From Ganoderma boninense (lineage: Eukaryota; Basidiomycota; Agaricomycetes; Polyporales; Polyporaceae), in assembly GCA_002900995.3 (NCBI GenBank), contig CM035305.1:186001-250000 (forward strand): a DNA stretch of 64,000 nucleotides, read 5' to 3'. The notes below the pieces were generated by a model. The model was not told where the DNA came from, searched no databases, and worked only from the letters and a program-made list of their open reading frames with translations. Positions 3,733 through 27,710 of this stretch are shown here, in pieces. The stretch's first letter is position 1. Each line of letters begins with the position of its first letter. Position numbers and translations under genes: made by a program.

Positions 3733-5127
3733 ATGAACGCTGCAGGACTTGCCCCCCCCAGCGTCAACGCGCCCCGCGGGAATTCGAAGGCGGCAGCACA
3801 GAAGCGCGAGACACCCAAGCTTCTCCTGCGCTTCCAAGCCCCCGAGACCCTACCGCCCTCCGCGACACTGCCAGAATCCACTGGCATTGCAGCAAATGAG
3901 GATGCCCCTGTGGCCCACAACACCTCCCGTACGTCGTGGATTTCTGTTTGTTCGAGAGTAAGGTTACGGAAGCCTGATTGCGACACGTAGACCAAGCGTC
4001 TGACCAGGAGTCCGACACCGTAGTTCCCACGGACTGCGAAGCGGGGCCGTCCACCGCCAGCAGCTCTCCGATCCCTGCGGCCAAAATTCCGGCGATATCG
4101 TTCAGTGGCACTAGCAAGCCTCGCGGGTACCTGCGGAAGCGCAGCGTCGACACGTCGCCGGCCACCAATACCAATACGAGTCGACCCGCGCCTCTTCTTG
4201 ACGATGCTGCCTCGCAACCTGGTGCAGAATCTTTGGAGAGGCAGGAAGGCCGGAGGAGCGCGGGGAGGACGTGGCTCCAGCTCGCAGAAGCGTGCGTGAA
4301 CTACGTCGGGCCGTACGACGAGCTGCAGGAGGCCGAGGAGCACTCGGACGACCAGCAGGTGGAGGCCGTGCTCGCGCGGCTGGTGGCCGAGTGGCAGGCC
4401 GTCGGGCAGATGGTAAGTGTCCCTGTCCTCGTCCTCGTCCTCGTCCTCGGCTGCGGTTGTGCTCCCTCCCTCGTTCGAATTCTCGCAACTATCGATATAA
4501 GCTCACATATGGTGGCTCTAACGTAGCTCCTGGGCCTTGCTGCAGTCAACACCGCGGTGATCGGCTTCGTCAGTGGAAGCACCGTGTTCGCCATCGACGA
4601 CTTCTCGCTGGGGGCGGTGACGATCGGCGCGATCGCTGCTGGCCTCGGCATGGCGGTGGACGCGTGGTTCTTCGTCCTCTTCAGCGGAGCCGACGCCGCC
4701 AAGTTCAAGGTCAGCGTCCTACCCGCACCTACCTATCTCGCATCCTCACATTGACATTGCATCCATACAGAGGCTGGCGAAGGACGTGTACGGGACGTAC
4801 TTCTTCTTCAGCCTCGCCTGCCGGCTGCCCACGCTCCACATGTCCGTGTCCGCGCTCGCGCTCGCGCTCTTCCTCCTCTCGACGGCGTGGGCGCACTCGC
4901 CCACCACGGCGCTCGTCGCCTTCTGCGTCTTCGGCATCTTCGTGGGCTCCCAGATGCTCGCGTGTGTGCTCCGGATACGGTGCGGGCCGGTTAGGACACC
5001 GAGGCTGCGGCCGCGCCGGACGCGACGTGCTGTTCGGGCATTCTCGCATCGGCCTGTCGTGTCTTCTTCTGGGGGACTCCCCGAGAGCCCTTTGGAAATG
5101 GATGTTGTTCAGGAAGATACAGCGTAG
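3733..5127 (+). CDS. C2-less paralogue of a four-helix membrane protein (385 aa)
   Basis: Exons 3733-3928, 3991-4412, 4527-4709 and 4771-5127 join in frame. The N-terminal ~140 residues are Ser/Pro/Thr-rich and low complexity. The conserved part starts at TWLQLAEACVNYVGPYDEL. It continues with a hydrophobic hairpin (LLGLAAVNTAVIGF... and GAVTIGAIAAGLGMAVDAWFF) and then RLAKDVYGTYFFFSLACRLP with two more membrane spans. The same exon pattern and phases recur in the next gene (5962-8444), so the two are a tandem duplicate pair. This copy shows no C2 domain. I know the family as an Agaricomycete membrane protein of unknown function. A run of GTCCTC repeats sits in the intron at about 4420-4447. 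The start codon is the first ATG in the exon; a further upstream exon cannot be excluded. Confidence 0.72.
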
Positions 5128-5961
5128 TCCTGATTATTTATACCTACTTACTGTGGCAGTAAGTCATACCAAAGTACAAGCGTTGGATAAACATAAACTT
5201 GCTACGACTTGTCTTCATATAGCCCTTCCAGACCCATTGTTCAACTCCAATTCTGTTGTGTTTACGGTTGTATACATACATTGGCTCCGAAGCGTAATTG
5301 CATGGTATCGAGGGGCCTATGCGACTTGTAAGTTTCCGGGTCGAGAGCTAAGCTATCGTTTGGAAAGGGGCAAGACTCTATAAGTTCCGTTGCAGTAGGT
5401 CCCTGTTTGCTAGGGATGGCTTCTCTTAGAAAATATCGCTAGTGCTCAGTTGTAGCTTGGCTTCTCTCTGGGTTCCAACCGTCTGTGAGCGGTTCGCGGT
5501 GGGTGGTACTCCTAATAGTGTCGGCCCACTTACTACCGGAAAACGAGCTGCAGGGCGATGAGGGAGAGCATAGCCATGGCCACGGAAGGTGCGCCATGGA
5601 AGAACAGAACATTGTGTGGCAGTGTGGCTCTACCAAGTCGGAAGGCGCCAGGAGGCAGCGGGGCGATGCGTAACGGAGGCGCCTATCAATTACTTTAAGC
5701 ACTCGCCACCAGCGCAGCATGTCATCGTCCCCGACCCCCCCGTTTCCTTGTATTCACCACCGCCTCCGCCCCCCATAACTTGCCTCCTCGGGGCTGCGCT
5801 GGGTTCCTTGACTCCCACCATTATCTCGGCATCCTAGGAACCTGTCTGCTTCGCCTTGGAGCTGCCGTTTATTCACGCCTGTCTGCGCGCCCGACTATCT
5901 GAGATTTACGACATTCGAGCGGACCCTGAGAGCACGCACGCAGCGTACACAATCGTCCAAA
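5128..5961. other. intergenic spacer between the tandem membrane-protein paralogues
   Basis: No supported gene. It should contain the 3' end of the upstream gene and the promoter of the C2-containing paralogue, which begins at 5962. Pyrimidine-rich stretches precede that ATG. Confidence 0.5.
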
Positions 5962-8444
5962 ATGGCTTCTACTGCTGAGTGCGTGGGGCGCAAACGCTGT
6001 TTGGGATCTTCGCTGACCACTCTCGTCTCCCTGCTGCAGCCCGTGGCACCTCACCGGTATGTAAATGCAGTGGTTCTTTGGTTGGCTGCGGATGCGCGTG
6101 ACTGACTCGACTCGTCCTTGCGGGCCAGTTGTCCGGACGCGTGGGCTGGTGTTCGTGCGCCCGGAGAAGTCTTGGAGGCCGATCGTGTCCATCTCGGTCG
6201 TCGACAACGACCACGACCATGGATTGCCGCACGAGGTCACTCTGGGTTGTGACGGCCAGAACCCGAACTTAAAATCGGTCATTCCCGTGTGAGTGCCTCT
6301 CTGACTCGTGTAAATGCATATGCACCCCCATTCCAGACGGCCATTATCAAACTCTCGGACATCCCCGTCTTCGCCCGTACTGTATGCGCGTGTCCAGGCC
6401 TCGAGGTGTTTACCGGGGCGTGCAGCAGCAATCACCGTCGGGCTTGTTTTATGTCTGAAGCGCACCCCTTCTCACACCTGTGCTTGTTGCCTTGTTTAAC
6501 AGCCACGAGGTTAAGGCGACCACGAAGCTCGTCATCCAGGTCTTCCACCGCTCGCAGACCAAGAAGAAGCACCGCAAACGCAACCTCGTCGGCTCCGCGT
6601 CCGTCTCCTTCGGCGAGTTCCTCAACAAGCACCCCCTGCCACACCCCGGCCCGTCGACTTCGACGTCCGCCTCGCATGTCCCCCGCCCCAGCGCAAGAGC
6701 CCGACGATCGGGGGCAAGCAGCTGTACGCCGCAACGCTGACGATGCGCTTCAAGCTCCACAAGAGCGAGGCAGGTCCGTCTCAGCTCGAGTCGCCGCCTC
6801 TGTCGCCCGTGTCGGCGTCGGAGCACTACGAGACCGAGCCGCTGCTGTCCGATGCGCCTTCGTGTACGTCCTCTCCTCTTTCCAGGCCCGCATATATGCG
6901 CACGCCACTCATCCCGCCGATCCATGGACAGCATCGCGCGCGCAGTCCGAGACTCTGGTCACCAACACCCCCAACGAGACCGGAGGCGATCAGAGGCCGT
7001 GGGGCAAGCAGCCCGAACGCGACCGCCTGGACGGCACGGCGGGGCTCCGGCGGCGGCGCAAGCAGCACAAGGCGCCGCGCGTGCGCGGGTTCCACGTCGA
7101 CAGCGACTCATACGCGGAGACGTCCTCTGGGGAGGAGTCGTACTTCCCGGAGACGCCCGAGGACGAGCACTTCCCCACGATATACGAGGACGAGCCCGGG
7201 TTCAAGGTCCGGAATTCTGACGACGACGAAAATGGTGGTCATCGGTTTGGGTATGGGGAGGGGGAGGAGGGAGTGGTGTTCTCGCCGAGCGTGCTGCCGG
7301 TCCATGCAGGGGTGGAGAGCGGAAGGGCGGAGGCGTCGTTCGGGGAGCGGTGCCTGTACTGGATCTCGCCGTACGAGGAGATCCGGGAGGCGGCGGAGGG
7401 CGGGGACTGCGAGAAGGCGGAGAAGGTGCTCGCGAGGCTGCTCACGGAGTGGTACGTCGTCGGCGCGTCGGTGAGTTCCCCTCCTTCCCCTCCTGCGAAT
7501 TTCAATCGTCGCAAGCGGTCAAGTTGAGGTCCATGCTGATTGTACGCGTACTAGCTACTGGCGCTGGCCGGTATCGACGCGGCCGTGTTCGGGTTCGCGC
7601 CGGGGGGCCTGTTCGTGCTGGAGGGGTTCTCGCTGGGCGCGGTCTCCATCGGCGCCATCGCCGCAGGGCTCGGGCTCGTGTACGACGCGTGGTTCCTCGT
7701 GCTCTACAGCGGCGCGAACGGCGCCAAGTTCCTCGTACGTCCCCGTTCTCGTTTTCCTTTCCCCTCGCACCACGCTGACCGCACCATCACCGGCAGCGCA
7801 TCGCCAAGGACGTGTACAACACGTACTTCTTCTTCTCGCTGACGTGCCGCCTCCCGATCCTGTGCATGGCGCTCTCGACGGTGTCGCTGATGGCGTTCCT
7901 GCTCGCCGTCGCGTGGACCGCGTGGCCGACCGCGGTGCTCGTCATGTCCTTCGTCGCGGGCCTCCTCCTCACCAGCCAGTTCGTCGTCTTCGGCATCCAC
8001 CGCCTCGTCAACTTCGCCGTCTGGTCCGTCCGCGTCGCGTGGCGCGCCGTCGTGCGCCGCAGCGGGGCCGCGACCAGCCCCGCGTGCCCGGAGGCGCAGC
8101 TGCGCCCGCAGGGGCAGGTCGCGGAGGAACGGATTCAGAGTCAGAGTCAGAACCAGACTCAGAATCAAACTCAGAGGATTGAGATGCCCGTTCCGCACCC
8201 GCACCCGCACCCGCGCCTGAGTCCGAGTCCGAGTCCGAGCCCCGCGCCTGTGGTCGCGGCGCCGGGGTATCTCACTGCGGACCCCAAGGCGCAGGTGGCG
8301 CAGTGGACTGAGGAGGTGCGCGTGAGCGTGAGTGTTTCTTCCATCATTTTTGCGCTGCTGCGTGAGAGAGTGGTGCTGATCAGGGCTTCCTCTATGATAA
8401 TGCAGTGCGAGGTGGAGAGGGAACTCGTCGCGGCTCCCTCATAG
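5962..8444 (+). CDS. C2 domain plus four-helix membrane protein, with an apparent 1-nt frameshift (~614 aa)
   Basis: Proposed exons are 5962-5978, 6040-6056, 6129-6288, 6503-6863, 6932-7470, 7555-7734, 7797-8327 and 8406-8444. The first four encode a C2-like beta-sandwich. It begins MASTADPWHLTVVRTRGL, and the join at 6288/6503 gives VIPVHEVKATTKLVIQVFHR. An acidic Ser-rich linker follows, then the membrane module (YWISPYEEIREA..., LLALAGIDAAVFGF, RIAKDVYNTYFFFS). The tail has Gln/Ser and Pro/His/Ser repeats. Near 6645-6660 the C2 frame shifts by one base: NKHPLPHPG lies in one frame, and DFDVRLACPPPQ, an obvious continuation, in another. A GT..AG pair (6653-6699) would restore the frame but would delete that strand. 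I favour a frameshift or sequencing error. The last intron is optional, because the sequence is also open unspliced. Function is unknown; the C2 domain suggests membrane or lipid contact. Confidence 0.68.
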
Positions 8445-19590: not shown

Positions 19591-19857
19591 CACTAGGTGC
19601 AGGTCAGAATATTTCAATACTGTAAATGTTACGGTAAAAGTAGTCTAAATACCTTTACCATCCCACGCCGCGAAAACTATAACTCCTCTTTATAGTGGAA
19701 TCCAGTCCTAAGTATCACAGCCTGTTACGCTGATATGCACCCCGTGCTACAATGAGGTGTTATAGTTATCACGACATGGGATGGTAAACGTATTTAGACT
19801 AGTTTTACCGTAATATTTACCGTATCTCGGGTGAAATATTTTGACCTGCACCTAGTG
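19591..19857. mobile_element. MITE-like element with ~75-bp inverted termini
   Basis: The left end CACTAGGTGCAGGTC runs through GTTACGGTAAAAGTAGTCT to ATGGTAAAGG (read in reverse) near 19665. The right end, from about 19777, is its reverse complement and finishes GACCTGCACCTAGTG. The core of ~110 bp has no reading frame. A related fragment flanks the right side of the large transposon at 27677. No clear target-site duplication was found. Confidence 0.75.
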
Positions 19858-19865
19858 AAAGGTAT

Positions 19866-19873
19866 CCATAATC
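19866..19873. repeat. 8-bp target-site duplication, left copy (CCATAATC)
   Basis: Identical to 27669-27676 and directly abutting the first base of the terminal inverted repeat on each side. Confidence 0.88.
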
Positions 19874-20102
19874 CAGGCTCCTACCCACCACCACTCTTCG
19901 GTTGAGAGGCAATTCCAGGAGAGGGGGTCGAGGTGGAATCCGAGAGGCGGGATGCGGCCTTGATCATGTATAAGCGCCAGATATCTTGAGTCACGTGAAT
20001 CCGTACAGTTGGCCTTCAACCTCAGAGGGCGGCTGGCACCAAACATTGGTAAACAACGGAGGCCGGAGAGCAGACGCTGAAGACCCCCCCCATTTGGTCG
20101 AC
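19874..20102 (+). repeat. left terminal inverted repeat
   Basis: Matches 27437-27668 in reverse complement. The inner ~82 bp (from CAGAGGGCGGCTGGCACC to the GTCGAC) are nearly identical. The outer ~145 bp are roughly 80% identical. It includes a conserved CACGTG and a GATCATGTATAAGCGC TATA-like stretch. It ends only 156 bp before the DUF6589 start codon, so it likely carries that promoter. Confidence 0.88.
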
Positions 20103-20258
20103 GGATGTCGACGTCGCTTAGCGAGTTTCGAAATATCGTCGTCTCGCTTATTTCACCTCGTCTCGCTTATTTCTAGTACTACTATATGGAGTGTAAAGCC
20201 TTACATTGTTAATCGATTCGGTTGGATTCAATACGACAGGTTCTGCCTCTGCGCCGCG

Positions 20259-22793
20259 ATGGACAACAATCGACTACGTCGGGCTTGTGAAGCCCTGTCC
20301 TATCTCCAGGGACAGAACATCCCCATCTCGGACCTTCTCTCGGCTGTCCTCATCCATAATCAATTCAATCGCCCCGAGCACATCTTCCTTTCAGATCTCT
20401 CGCGCTCGGTCCCAATTATCCTGTCATCTTTATACCACCATCCGGCGATGGCGAGCTCAACTTATTTGTGGGCGCACGAGCTCATGTGCACGCGCTACGC
20501 GCGTGCGGTCCGGAATCTCTCTTGGGCAGGGAATGGCTGGCACTTCGGCGCTGCAAGTGCTACTCCCGAGCAAGTACGGAGTTTCCGTTTGGAGGACATG
20601 GCAAGATCAATGCGTGCCATGGAGCCTCAGCTCTGGGAACTCGTGTTCCGTGTCTTGGGAGGAACAGACATGATTAACGAGGACACCGCCTGGCACGATG
20701 GTTCACACGACGACGACGAGGACGCCGAATACTGGATGGATAATGAAGAGGCAGAGAGGATCCTGTATCAAGACGGGCCGAGCACTGGTAGCAAGAAGGT
20801 TAGCAAGAAGTGCAGAGAACGGGCTGCATTAATTCGTATTGTGCGTTCCTGACTGGTTATCTGGTTTCGGGTTACAGCTAACATGTATGCTAACAGAAAT
20901 CAGTGGTTGTCATCAGTATATTCATGAATACAGTTGATCAGCAGTGCAACGCACTCCAGAGCTTGACGGGCATCTTTCTTCATTCCTGCAACGCACCGGA
21001 GAAACTCATCAAGGTCCTTGCCCGCATGGGTCTCTCTATCTCTCTGACGTCCATACACCGTGCAATCGATTCGCTTTCCCAGAAGTCCCGTGTTGAAGTT
21101 GAAACACTTGGCCGTACCCTCCTTTCCTCGCATGCTTTCGACAACTTCGACGCTCAAATCAGCACCCTCATCTCCACTGTGGATAAACCCAATGAAGGTC
21201 TCCTGCATCTCACATCCGGAACCCTTCTCCGCCTGCAACAGGCACGTCTTGAAGACTTGCGCTGCTCGAAGCTTATATGGGATAGATCTGAACGGAACAG
21301 GAATGCTTCTGATCCCCGTCCATTTGACCCTTCTGCCACCATCCGAAAACTCTACAAACTGCACCCTGAGACAGCAGCTTCTACGAGTGGGCCCCCTGGC
21401 CTCAGTCGGCGCGGTCGGTTTCGTGCGTGGTGGTTTGTCCGAACACTGTTGCAGCACGGACCACAGTCGCTTCGCGTTCTGCTCTCATACCTTCGCGACC
21501 CCGATCCTGTCGAAAGTATCCCAGTCTCTCAGCTTCATCAGGCTCCGCTTCGCGCCATGGACATCAATCAATCTACTGTGTCAGGAAACATTGCAGCCAT
21601 TCTGAATATATTCGAGCAGGCGGGGCTTGGAAATCCTCACGAGCGCCCACTGGCAGGGGACGGATCGCGAGTGGACCCTGAGGAGTTTGTTGTGCTCGTG
21701 CACGGCGACCTTGGCACCTGCGAACGGGTGACATCTGGTGTGCGCCGACGCGTACAGGAAGAGTGCCCATACGATCGTCTGCAATCCGTGGTCTTTGTAC
21801 CTGGGCTATTCCACCTGAAAATGGCGGCGGCAGACACGATTTGGCGCCTTCTTGTCAATCCGGACGGGGCACGAGCGGACGACACTAGTTTCATGAAGCT
21901 CGCGGGAGAACTCCGACCAAACGAGAGCTCGAGGCTAGTTAACAATGCGAAGTTCCGTCAACAACACGAATTGATCAATCATGTCGGAACAATCCTCCAG
22001 CTTGATGCATGGCGCGTCGAGATACTAAAACAATTCGGCCATTCCTCACTAGAAGATTGGGCTGCGACGAAGCCAAAGCTCTCGGACATTCAGGCTATCG
22101 CTAATGTGCTTGCCCGGGACTACGTGGAAGGGGAGGGGATAAATATGTTCGCAGTGCAACGGCGACCAGAGGGTGCTCGCGATCGGGTGCGGGAGAATAC
22201 GATGCGATCCTTGGATTATCTCCTGCTGTACGAGGAGCTTGCATACGCCATGAACGCGGGGGACATCGGGAGGATTGAGACTGTACTTCCGGCGTGGATA
22301 CAGTTGTTTCGAGTAGCCGGGAAGCACAAGTACAGTCATCAAATGCTGCGCTTCTGGCACGCCCTGTACTTCATTTACCCTGAAAGTTTACGGTGAGTGG
22401 AATAACATATTTCCAGGCTCATAATTGAGTGTAATCTTACAGAAAGGTCATACGCATGAATATCCTCGTGAACCCGTCTGGCAAAGCTATGGAGTTCCGT
22501 GCCGTAGATTGGGTTGTGGAGCTGTTGAATCTGTATATCAAGGTGCGTCGTCAAGCATTCCTTCTATTCATCTACTAGACACACTTCACGCATACTAGGT
22601 GATCTACGGAGGCGAGGGGCCGAACTACACGAAGACACGCATCCTTCAAGAGTCCAACATTGTGCTCCTCCTGCGCGCTAGTCACGCCAACTTTGAGCGA
22701 AATTTTCGAATACCCGGGATTACCTTTGCACACGCGAAAAAGGACATGCGACAAACATTCAAGCTCATGTTGGAGAGGCACCATATGTTGTAG
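20259..22793 (+). CDS. DUF6589-family protein, candidate transposase (790 aa)
   Basis: Exons 20259-20840, 20897-22392, 22443-22542 and 22599-22793 join in frame without stops. I recognise the DUF6589 family from its conserved blocks: MNTVDQQCNALQSLTGIFLHS (residues ~203-223), FVVLVHGDLGTCERV (~458-472), VVFVPGLFHLKMAAADTIW (~493-511), KHKYSHQMLRFWHALYF, FRAVDWVVELLNLYIKVIYGG and the C-terminal ASHANFERNF. Asp465 in HGDLGT, followed by a conserved Gly-Leu-Phe-His block, looks like part of an RNase H-fold catalytic site (inference). An acidic stretch (DDDEDAEYWMDNEEAE) lies at ~155-170. The family is widespread and multicopy in Agaricomycetes and has no established function. Position between TIR and palindrome, with the promoter in or beside the TIR, makes it the main transposase candidate. 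Confidence 0.85.
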
Positions 22794-23010
22794 TATTGAT
22801 GTATCATGTTACGACTAACACCCTAGAGCGTTTTACATCAGGTTACGGCTAAAAGTGTGATGTATCAGGAACCTCTGGAGCCTCCGGGACAGCTTGTCGT
22901 TGCTTGCCTTATTTAGGAGGTCCTCCTCCGGGGCCACTGATGGCACAGCATTGCTGCCTCCCAGGCTTATCTAAGCCTGTGGACCACTGTCCCGGGTGCC
23001 TGGGTGCCTC

Positions 23011-23098
23011 CCCCATCAAATCTGGGCTCCCTCCCATCAATTCCGGTATTCCCCCATCAATCCTGGGCTCCCCCCATCAATTCCGGGTTCTCCCATCA
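23011..23098. repeat. imperfect ~20-bp tandem repeats in the left arm
   Basis: Repeated units of the type CCCATCAATTCCGGG / CCCATCAATCCTGGGCTCC, about four copies. The mirror arm has one unit fewer. Confidence 0.8.
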
Positions 23099-23348
23099 TT
23101 CTACCAACCTCCTGCCCCTCCTGTCCCAATATGGCAATCCCTCCTTCCCTCCCGGAATTGTGTTAGCTGTATCTCCCTCAATTCTGGGTGTATTGACTTC
23201 GTTCTTTTTGCATTATGTTCGTCTAATTAGCGCGCTTCTAATGCACCTAACACGACCATACAACGAAGGTTATAACATATACTAATGGCCCCTCTATAGT
23301 CGCTCTAGGGGGAAATGTTTGGCCCATATCTCGGCCGTTTTTGCACGC

Positions 23349-23419
23349 ATTTGCTCGCGAGAGGGCGCGTTTTGTTCGCGTGATCGACGCGCACAAAACG
23401 AGCCCTCTCGCGAGCAAAT
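23349..23419. repeat. 71-nt hairpin in left arm
   Basis: Two 32-nt half-sites, starting ATTTGCTCGCGAGAGGGC, face each other across a 7-nt loop (TGATCGA) with two mismatches. Such a structure could extrude as a cruciform or form a stable RNA stem. It is repeated in the mirror arm. Confidence 0.93.
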
Positions 23420-23836
23420 CCGTCCACCCGTTCCTCCGGTGCGTATATCCCCTCCTCCTAGAAAACAGGTATATGCACTTGGGAACCACTGGACCGATTG
23501 GCTTTGTTCTTTTTGCGTCTGGTAGCTACTAATAAGTGTATTCTAGGCGTACAAATTGCATACAGGCGCACCTAGTTGCCACTGTAGGAGGGGGGCATCA
23601 ATAGTCACCTATAGTTGACTTCTTCCCCCCATATCTCCTTCGGTTCTTGGCCGTTTTTTGTGCCCTTTATACGCCCAGAAAGCCCTGTGTAAGGGCTTTC
23701 CAACGAGCCTACATATGCCCAAGTCCGTCCACTGTAGCCCTCGGACCATAGACCCCTTCTCCTGACTGCTCCCCTCCCCACTGTTTGGCCCATATCTTGG
23801 GCAGTTCTGGGCCAATCCACTTGCTCTCTTTTGCGT

Positions 23837-24394
23837 CCTATGCATGCCATAGCACTTCTTGTAACCAAGCAGTGTATACCACTATTCTCTCCAACGATCT
23901 ATATAGAGTCTGTTATCAGTGGTACCCAGATCTACCCCCCTCTGACATATATGTAGGTGGTGGTAGCTGGGTAGATCATATACACTACTTGAAAGCCCTT
24001 TGCAGCCGCTTTCCAACAAGCCCAAAACCATCCAAATCGGTCAACAAATGGATGAGATATAGCTAATAGATCAAATGTACACTGGGGTGTAAGACACTTT
24101 AAGACAGGCAGTAAGACACTGCTCTCGGAAATGCCTTACTAGACCAAGGGGTCCCCCTTGGCTTCCACAAGTCATATCTCAATGACTTCTTACCTGTTTC
24201 CCCTCAACTTTGTTGCATTGGATAGCTGTAATTGGCTGCTATCCGACCCTATAACTGCATGTTTTATCAGACAAATGGAAAAATTGTCAGAGGGGGGTAA
24301 ACTGGTGACCACTGATAACACCCTGGATATAGATCTAAATGCCTGATAGTACTTTTAAGTGGTGAATTGGCTTGTGGTATAGTACACATATACA
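23837..24394. other. central spacer of the giant inverted repeat
   Basis: 558 bp between the arms. It has no gene but holds a nested, more diverged inverted pair: 23901-23946 against 24286-24331, sharing GTCAGAGGGGGGTA and CCACTGATAACA. The palindrome is therefore older than its near-identical outer arms suggest. Confidence 0.75.
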
Positions 24395-25268
24395 ACGCAA
24401 AAGAGAGCAAGTGGATTGGCCCAGAACTGCCCAAGATATGGGCCAAACAGTGGGGAGGGGAGCAGTCAGGAGAAGGGGTCTATGGTCCGAGGGCTACAGT
24501 GGACGGACTTGGGCATATGTAGGCTCGTTGGAAAGCCCTTACACAGGGCTTTCTGGGCGTATAAAGGGCACAAAAAACGGCCAAGAACCGAAGGAGATAT
24601 GGGGGGAAGAAGTCAACTATAGGTGACTATTGATGCCCCCCTCCTACAGTGGCAACTAGGTGCGCCTGTATGCAATTTGTACGCCTAGAATACACTTATT
24701 AGTAGCTACCAGACGCAAAAAGAACAAAGCCAATCGGTCCAGTGGTTCCCAAGGTGCATATACCTGTTTTCTAGGAGGAGGGGATATACGCACCGGAGGA
24801 ACGGGTGGACGGATTTGCTCGCGAGAGGGCTCGTTTTGTGCGCGTCGATCACGCGAACAAAACGCGCCCTCTCGCGAGCAAATGCGTGCAAAAACGGCCG
24901 AGATATGGGCCAAACATTTCCCCCTAGAGCGACTATAGAGGGGCCATTAGTATATGTTATAACCTTCGTTGTATGGTCGTGTTAGGTGCATTAGAAGCGC
25001 GCTAATTAGACGAACATAATGCAAAAAGAACGAAGTCAATACACCCAGAATTGAGGGAGATACAGCTAACACAATTCCGGGAGGGAAGGAGGGATTGCCA
25101 TATTGGGACAGGAGGGGCAGGAGGTTGGTAGAATGATGGGAGAACCCGGAATTGATGGGGGGAGCCCAGGATTGATGGGGGAATACCGGAATTGATGGAG
25201 GGAGGCACCCAGGCACCCGGGACAGTGGCCCACAGGCTTAGATAAGCCTGGGAAGCAGCAATGCTGTG
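24395..25268 (-). repeat. right arm of internal giant inverted repeat
   Basis: Mirror copy of 22944-23836. Diverged similarity continues to about 25455, where it overlaps the last exon of the helicase gene. Confidence 0.93.
24813..24883. repeat. 71-nt hairpin in right arm
   Basis: Mirror copy of the hairpin at 23349-23419, with the same half-sites and loop length. Confidence 0.93.
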
Positions 25269-25350
25269 CTTGGAAGTAGATCTTCCAAATCAGGGAGATA
25301 ACTGGTGGCTGTTCCATTAATTCCGGAGGAGGCCTCCCCAATTAGGTAGG

Positions 25351-27371
25351 TTATTGATGGCTGTCCCGGAAGCCCAGGAGGCGTCGTGATACATCAGATC
25401 GCTTGCTGTAACCTGATGTAAAACAACTTAGAGTCGTAACCAGAACCTGATACATCATTACTACAACAGCAGCTGCCTCAACCAGGCCGTGGTTGGTTGA
25501 AGACATGGCGTACTTGGTGGGGACTGTTGAAGCTCGAGGGACAGAGGCTTTGGGAGTAGGAGGAGGCGGGAGGATGTTGAACGCTGTGTGGTTGGGCGAA
25601 CACAGGGAGCAGCAGACCGAAGAGGGAGAGATGCGGCAACGAGGGCATCCACCGAGAACGTTCGGATGGCAGGCTTCTCCGTCTTGGGCTGAGATTATGT
25701 AATGGATAAGTTTCAAAACCATAATGAAAGTAAGGTATGCCACAACTTACTGGTCCGGTCGTTCTCATAGAATGCCGTAATTGGCACCCGGTAACATTTG
25801 AATGGCCGTGTGGCCGCGTTAACAAGGTTGTCCAGCTCCGGACCAACGACCTCCGTCTTGCTGGACGCCTTCCCCACTTTCTTGGCTTTCGGCGCGGAAA
25901 CCTGGAACTGGATACGTAGTTCCTCGTACTTGGACATGGGGACAACATCAGTGACCTGCAGCGACGGCGCGCCTATATCGCCTGCACGCGATCCCACTCT
26001 TCGCCTGCTGACTGCCACTGCCGTACTGGCGCTCTCGGCTCGTTTGCGCTTCCCTTGCTCGCGCTCGGCAGCCTTCTTCTCGGCGGCCTCCTTTTTTTTC
26101 TTCTCCTTCGCCTCTGTAGCTGCTTTAGCCTGATCGAAGTGCTTCTTGTCAACGATCAGGATCGCAAGGCCCTCGGTCCCTAACCCTCTGGCAGCACGGC
26201 CGAAACGTTGCCAAAGGGTATCGATATCGCAAGTTGCTCGCCACTGGACGACAATTTGAATATTAGGAATGTCAATACCCTACATAGCGAGGAATAATTA
26301 GCAATGACGTTTCTGAATCGCGACGATGGGCCTTCCTACCATCCCGAAAGAGTCCGTGCAGTACAATCCAAGTAAGTCGCCCCTTGCAAAATTCTGTGTG
26401 GCTTTCTCGCGAAGCGCAGGGGTTACGTCTGAATTTATCCACATGATGCGCCCGCGATGCTCGGGGGGGAGGCGCTGCTGCATCCGCAAAGCCGCTTGGA
26501 CCGAGTCTTCTATGCTATCAAAGAAGACCACAAATGGGCGGATCTGGACTTCCGGACTCCAGTTATCTGGAATCAGGAAATCCAGATCCTTGAAGGTGGC
26601 GATGGGGTACTGCATTTGGTGCACTGTTAGGTAAACATTAGGCCGGTCATTCGACCGCCTGAACATGGTAGTCTTTTGGAGCGGGATCTGTAGCGTGTCA
26701 AGGACTCCACGGAGGACGGGGCCGGGAAGAGTAGCCGATGGGAGGAGGAATCGCGTCGGGATCATGTTCCTGAGGCGACCCGCTTCGCCGTAGTCGCTTC
26801 GAAAGCCCGCCCATGACTGAATACAGTGCGCCTCATCCCATATAACCGAGATGAGCCGAGAAGTGAATGCCGATGTCCGCCAAAGCTTCTGGAAGGGGCC
26901 GCCGGGCTTGAAAGCAACTTCGGGATTGACAGTGACGACACGATATTTGAAGAGCTCTATATCCTGTGAAAGGTAACATAGGTTTGTATGGTTAGCTATC
27001 AACAGGTCCGAGTAAGTAGGGTATGCTACCTCGAAATTTCTCGTGGTAGCTGTTTTCCCGCACAATGCAATTGCATGTATGCCGAGCCGTTTGAGCTCCT
27101 CGGTGTTTTGAGCACCAAGGAGGTTAAGAGGAGTAATAACTATCTGAATCCCCTGCGGACGAAAGAGCAAGGGGATCCAGAAAGTTAATGTCTTGCCAGA
27201 GCCCGTGCCCGAGATACAGACAATATCTTTATCGCCTCGCAGCTGAGCTTGGGCGACACGACACTGCCATAAACAAGGTCGACGGCCCAGGAGTTGCAAC
27301 GACCTGTCCCGGATCTCGTCCAAAGACGGGACGCTCTCTTGCCTTCGCGATAGCGCCGCCGCCGATGCCAT
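25351..27371 (-). CDS. RecQ-type ATP-dependent DNA helicase of the transposon (610 aa)
   Basis: Exons on the minus strand: 27371-27030, 26963-26340, 26279-25751 and 25688-25351, all in frame. Walker A is GTGSGKT (residues ~55-61), motif II DEAHCIQSW (~157), motif III SAT, and motif VI WQRFGRAARG (~345-354) after FGMGIDIPNIQIVVQW. A Lys/Glu-rich helix follows. The C-terminus has a Cys-rich cluster (C-H-P..CPRC..VCCSLC..H), likely zinc-binding. All core helicase motifs are intact, so it should unwind DNA 3'-5' as RecQ enzymes do. The first intron (66 nt) is a multiple of three and open, so an unspliced product is also possible. The start ATG is 66 bp inside the right TIR boundary. Similar free-standing RecQ proteins are abundant in Agaricomycete genomes. 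The last exon runs into the diverged edge of the palindrome, so the exact stop is less certain. Confidence 0.87.
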
Positions 27372-27436
27372 GCCTTGAGGCCCGAGGAAAGAAGCTCGAT
27401 GGATTTTCAACAATTGAAATTTTCGCTTACGGTTGG

Positions 27437-27668
27437 GTCGACCAAATGGGGGGGGTCTTCAGCGTCTGCTCTCCGGCCTCCGTTGTTTACCAATGTTTGG
27501 TGCCAGCCGCCCTCTGAAGTTGAGGGGCAACTGCAATCTTTCACGTGACTAAACATAACCAGCGCTTATACATGATCAAGCCCGAGTACCGCTTTCCTAG
27601 ATTCCACCTCGACCCCCGCTCCTGGAATTCGGCCCCTCAACGAAAGAGTGGCGGTGGGAAGGAGCCTG
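27437..27668 (-). repeat. right terminal inverted repeat
   Basis: Reverse complement of 19874-20102; see the left copy. Its inner end lies 66 bp upstream of the helicase start codon, so it should act as that gene's promoter. Confidence 0.88.
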
Positions 27669-27676
27669 CCATAATC
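27669..27676. repeat. 8-bp target-site duplication, right copy (CCATAATC)
   Basis: Perfect match to 19866-19873. Confidence 0.88.
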
Positions 27677-27710
27677 CAGACTACTTTTACCGTAACCTTT
27701 ACAGTACGCT
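27677..27710. repeat. MITE-related fragment flanking the transposon
   Basis: AGACTACTTTTACCGTAAC resembles the arm of the MITE at 19591-19857 (there in reverse as GTTACGGTAAAAGTAGTCT). Together with AAAGGTAT on the left side it suggests that the target was a MITE-derived sequence. Confidence 0.6.

Follow-up and report, generated by a model that had tools for sequence, protein, structure and literature searches.

The window analysed here is a stretch of 64,000 nucleotides from Ganoderma boninense (assembly GCA_002900995.3, contig CM035305.1, positions 186,001 to 250,000 of the forward strand). Its positions 19874-27668 are a DNA transposon with inverted ends and two genes inside. We consider this element most probably a DDE transposon of the AcademH type, within the Academ lineage, with a DUF6589 protein as its transposase and a RecQ-type helicase as likely helper. 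The main value of the locus is that it points to a likely transposase function for DUF6589, a family of mushroom-forming fungi that has no function in Pfam and whose genes are listed as hypothetical proteins.

Ends and genes of the element

The ends and the two genes lie as follows.

19866-19873: left target-site duplication, CCATAATC (19866-19874, CCATAATCC, if 9 bp)
19874-20102, + strand: left terminal inverted repeat, tip CAGGCTCC
20259-22793, + strand: DUF6589 gene, predicted DDE transposase; exons 20259-20840, 20897-22392, 22443-22542, 22599-22793
27371-25351, - strand: RecQ-type helicase gene; exons 27371-27030, 26963-26340, 26279-25751, 25688-25351
27437-27668, - strand: right terminal inverted repeat, pairing with the left repeat, tip CAGGCTCC
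27669-27676: right target-site duplication, CCATAATC (27669-27677, CCATAATCC, if 9 bp)

An earlier note on this DNA had described terminal inverted repeats (TIRs) of about 230 bp, and the alignment of the two ends bears this out, with 206 of 235 aligned bases identical and 6 gap positions. The same note had read a perfect 8-bp duplication. CCATAATC does stand outside both tips, and the chance of an 8/8 match at a site fixed by the tips is 4^-8, about 1.5e-5; the usual length in this genome, however, is 9 bp. Since the C of the left tip and the last C of the duplication may be one base, the window copy can be read as having a 9-bp duplication minus one C. We infer that CCATAATCC would have stood on both sides and that one C was lost at the junction of the left duplication and tip.

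The two genes are convergent. Each has four exons and three introns, the latter predicted from GT-AG sites, and is open to a stop (790 codons for DUF6589, 610 for the RecQ-type gene). That DUF6589 is a transposase, as the earlier note suggested, is very likely, because the fold model of a relative (not of the window protein itself) is RNase H-like, with a predicted local distance difference test score (pLDDT) of 91, because the solved folds nearest to that model are the P element and Hermes transposases, and because a D-D-E set is conserved. In Pfam, the window protein matches DUF6589 (E 3.7e-95) and no second family above cut-off. Its predicted active site would comprise three residues, whose codons were located by hand count from the predicted exons.

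21140-21142, + strand: codon of Asp276, predicted first catalytic D (36/36 rows of alignment A1)
21707-21709, + strand: codon of Asp465, predicted second catalytic D (36/36 rows of A1)
22519-22521, + strand: codon of Glu719, predicted catalytic E (31/32 rows with a letter in A1; 48/52 in A2; 10/10 in A3)

Asp465, already singled out in the earlier note as a candidate active-site residue in an RNase H fold, is the second D of the conserved set, and the fold predicted for the relative is nuclease-like.

Neither C/DxxH nor CxxC, the signatures of the hAT/P/MuDR/Kolobok/Dada and CACTA-Transib groups, is conserved in DUF6589. Past the second D, [CD]xxH is not conserved in A2 and is entirely absent there from the window protein. 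A profile of A3 searched against solved structures gave just two weak matches, both unrelated; a viral structure library returned nothing at E <= 0.001 (its top row was a hAT-like protein, E 0.016), and none of the 41 stretches matched in a scan of viral contigs was a DUF6589 relative. Three protein searches found at least 107, at least 19 and at least 96 proteins, and all those that bear a name are fungal; each search for animal or XPG-bearing relatives scored about 8,000 candidates, and animal relatives may still exist. Among the matches listed, the hosts belong to Basidiomycota and to Actinomortierella, with no Ascomycete in the three lists, and the closest relatives are Ganoderma proteins at 65-85% identity. 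UniRef gives the closest of these listed matches, P0001 from G. boninense, the name "ATP-dependent RNA helicase CshA", although the protein's sole listed Pfam domain is DUF6589; the name was perhaps borrowed from a neighbouring helicase gene.

The RecQ-type protein carries the Pfam domains DEAD and Helicase_C. Its best NCBIfam match is recQ_fam (E 1e-33, under the curated cut-off), and its best solved relatives are chains of the WRN helicase.

Copies in the genome and joint divergence of the two genes

The combination of the two genes is repeated across the genome. A search with the DUF6589 family yielded 33 exon-level matches, which group into 16 places, and at 15 of these a RecQ-type match lies within about 10 kb, the exception (L039) being a short fragment. 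(Handles of the form L0xx denote loci of the same genome; counts include the window where stated.) The claim that DUF6589 and RecQ form one mobile unit is supported: the helicase travels with DUF6589. Twelve of the 15 pairs are convergent and three divergent (L030/L031, L032, L033). At 11 of the 15 pairs the search for ends turned up tips with an exact or near-exact duplication of 8-10 bases; at L030/L031, L032 and L034 the duplication was recognised on visual inspection of the flanks and not by scripted scans.

Exact 9-bp duplication: L023, L024, L025, L026, L029, L032, L033
Exact 10-bp duplication: L027
Other: window, 8 bp; L030/L031, 8/9; L034, 7/9

The ends also occur apart from the genes. 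With the left repeat of the window as query, 22 further genome matches were obtained at E <= 0.001, its own right end included. Six of ten extracted places that have TIRs only (L041-L045, L048) are gene-less copies of 294 to 2,261 bp that carry the same tips between exact duplications of 9 bp, so the further copies of the tips that the earlier note proposed to look for are indeed present; the other four (L040, L046, L047, L049) showed no end pair with a duplication. Altogether, 17 two-ended copies, the window included, have 13 exact duplications of 9 bp, one of 10 bp and three imperfect ones, that of the window among them. In the window's family the tips read CAGGCTCC; elsewhere they are TAG, a variable base, then mostly CTC.

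At the remaining four of the 15 pairs (L035-L038), scans for ends and duplications found none, and the gene pair thus does occur without recognised TIRs; co-occurrence between recognised TIRs, which the earlier note proposed to test, holds for 11 pairs. Two of them, L037 and L038 (G000:C7:637000-654900), are head-to-tail copies, about 6.5 kb each, of one unit with DUF6589 and RecQ; they are 99.5% identical and abut at one point, with no ends or duplications found. RecQ-type matches without a DUF6589 nearby occur at C3:1828446 and C2:4171175, and these are probably host helicases. That DUF6589 and its RecQ neighbours might be host genes only was also considered, and was rejected because of the ends and duplications.

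The two genes have diverged together. Normalised translated similarity was computed for each gene separately over all pairs of the 15 loci, L039 being excluded as it has no RecQ; one value exceeds 1 (1.03), owing to unequal lengths. The DUF6589 and RecQ matrices correlate with a Pearson coefficient of 0.96 and a Spearman coefficient of 0.73, and in 9,999 permutations of the labels the rank correlation never came up to the observed one. For the L023-L024 comparison, omega comes to 0.067 in DUF6589 (715 codons) and 0.065 in RecQ (511 codons), values that are rough because synonymous divergence (dS) is near saturation, at 2.5 and 1.7 respectively; in comparisons with the window it is fully saturated in five of six. 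As judged from these comparisons of sequence, both genes are preserved as proteins, and as a pair. Since transposase and helicase have diverged in parallel at 15 loci, the question why a DDE transposase keeps a helicase of its own becomes testable.

One could picture the following course of transposition. The DUF6589 protein would pair the ends of about 230 bp, cut them, and join the cut ends to both strands of the target, 9 bases apart; filling of the gaps left by this stagger would yield the 9-bp duplication. RecQ might unwind or otherwise process DNA at the transposon ends or at the gap while cleavage and repair proceed, and it is likely to help the transposon move. We prefer cut-and-paste to copy-out movement, although the data do not decide between the two; both this preference and the role of RecQ are put forward with less confidence than the AcademH-type reading as a whole. 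If DUF6589 is an Academ-type transposase, many DUF6589 genes and their RecQ neighbours would be mobile elements rather than host genes.

Long inverted ends are a property of MULE (MuDR) elements too. The transposon could accordingly be MULE-like, with DUF6589 and RecQ as passenger genes, and its 9-bp duplications would fit, the length for MuDR being given as 4 to 10 bp in a passage of PMC10045372. We regard this as very unlikely. No MULE domain was found in Pfam, either in the window DUF6589 protein up to E 1 or in the ten relatives of A3 up to E 10; the ends enclose no further gene recognised as a transposase (the remaining open frames were not searched singly); the DUF6589 model is itself transposase-like; and the gene pair is kept over 15 loci.

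A nested palindrome and the flanks

Between the two genes of the window element lies an element of another family, which is not part of the transposon proper.

22779-25475: nested palindromic element, 2,697 bp

It is an almost perfect palindrome, with arms of about 1.07 kb and tips CACCATATG and CAGCTGCTG, and its family has at least 37 genome matches of 2.2 kb or more, the window included. The four copies checked (L050-L053) all have exact 7-bp duplications. No such duplication surrounds the insert in the window (GGAGAGG versus CCTCAAC), so the insertion was probably accompanied by a loss of what had stood between the gene ends. The insert contributes the final 4 residues and the stop of the DUF6589 protein, and about residues 570-610 (some 41) and the stop of the RecQ-type protein. 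The earlier note had spoken of two convergent intact genes: they are convergent and their frames are open, but both 3' ends have been replaced by the insert, so that neither of the two is entirely intact. When 35 DUF6589 relatives were aligned, 22 extended 61-159 residues past the point at which the insert takes over in the window protein, and the others, many of which are partial models, stop sooner. Given these extensions, the window copy has probably been damaged by the insert, at the ends of both genes.

Another of the elements, L030, likewise has a palindrome between its DUF6589 and RecQ genes (4889-7228); this insert is a different one, about 2.3 kb long, with 776-bp arms that are 99% complementary.

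Outside the transposon, the left flank holds another small element.

19591-19857: small inverted-repeat element, outer arms of 26 bp, 96% complementary, ending 8 bases ahead of the left duplication

The right flank repeats a part of the arm motif at 27678-27706, and the genome contains diverged relatives of this small element at other places. The right 300-bp flank of the transposon is single-copy except for a 33-base match. Empty sites were sought with the joined flanks of 13 other copies, among the loci extracted rather than in the whole genome; short repeats aside, these matched their own places only.

Relation to described transposons

The P element has the fold closest to the DUF6589 model, despite the missing C/DxxH. 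Neither P elements nor hAT elements (Hermes) are known to carry a helicase. The C/DxxH that hAT and P have in common, according to an excerpt of PMC9587614, is not conserved in DUF6589. hAT duplications, moreover, are usually 8 bp, or 5-7 in named subgroups (part of PMC12730594), which differs from the 9 bp of 13 of our 17 copies; the window copy alone reads 8. The Kyakuja-Dileera-Zisupton (KDZ) group, as portrayed in the same part of that source, resembles the present elements in that it consists of large TIR-bounded transposons that bring along accessory genes, and in its occurrence in the same fungal group. It differs in that Zisupton duplications are 8 bp and the accessory genes include TET/JBP, whereas DUF6589 has no other Pfam match above cut-off.

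A RecQ helicase within a fungal DDE transposon is also a trait of KolobokH, which encodes RecQ and is known from fungi only (PMC9587614, in excerpt). Assignment to KolobokH nevertheless has next to no probability in our estimation. The excerpt gives Kolobok TTAA duplications, 5'-RR termini and C/DxxH; the duplications found here are 9-10 bp and none is TTAA, the tips are YAG, and C/DxxH is not conserved in DUF6589.

A different possibility is a separate, undescribed superfamily, in which a DUF6589 DDE transposase that is no homologue of Academ is paired with RecQ, the helicase and the 9-10-bp duplication having arisen in parallel. The transposase would then be of P-element/hAT fold without C/DxxH, its dedicated RecQ retained within one genome in several lineages that diverged deeply, and the elements would represent a candidate DDE transposition system that depends on a helicase. 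Pfam still lists DUF6589 without a function, the family has no conserved C/DxxH or CxxC signature, and searches of a literature library for DUF6589, PF20231 and IPR046496 retrieved no relevant paper and nothing that equates DUF6589 with the Academ transposase, although Repbase may hold such an entry. We think this origin unlikely all the same: fungal Academ elements with recQ_fam and AcademH duplications of 9 or 10 bp are both on record in the portions of the literature cited below, and a double match would be hard to obtain by chance.

We therefore return to Academ. AcademH is reportedly the helicase-bearing lineage of that superfamily, and its DDD/E triad may have a counterpart in the conserved D-D-E of DUF6589, which goes with the RNase H-like model of the relative. 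The likeness is one of described features. A part of PMC10045372 gives AcademH duplications of 9 or 10 bp and an encoded helicase, and AcademX 3 or 4 bp; here a duplication of 9 or 10 bp is exact in 14 of the 17 two-ended copies, the window copy differing in reading 8 bp unless one C was lost. The helicase gene stands beside the transposase in both cases, here with DEAD and Helicase_C and with recQ_fam as best match below cut-off. AcademH is low-copy and occurs in Basidiomycota, Ascomycota and Mucoromycota (PMC10799480, in part), and the present elements, too, are low-copy in a basidiomycete host. Putative non-autonomous Academ elements appear in the agaric Marasmius oreades in an excerpt of PMC8290104; Academ goes unnamed in the portion of PMC12730594 that covers other fungal superfamilies. 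Most fungal Academ copies, an extract of a 2019 survey (PMC6416283) reports, have domains such as DEAD/DEAH helicase and recQ_fam, which are not classed as specific to transposable elements, and the copies are frequently annotated as host genes. The earlier note's claim that no described superfamily has this gene pair cannot, then, be sustained, since fungal Academ/AcademH elements with a RecQ-family helicase and 9-10-bp duplications have been published and KolobokH encodes RecQ as well. Because helicase, duplication length and host group are shared, the DUF6589-RecQ pair is likely to be the fungal Academ with recQ_fam.
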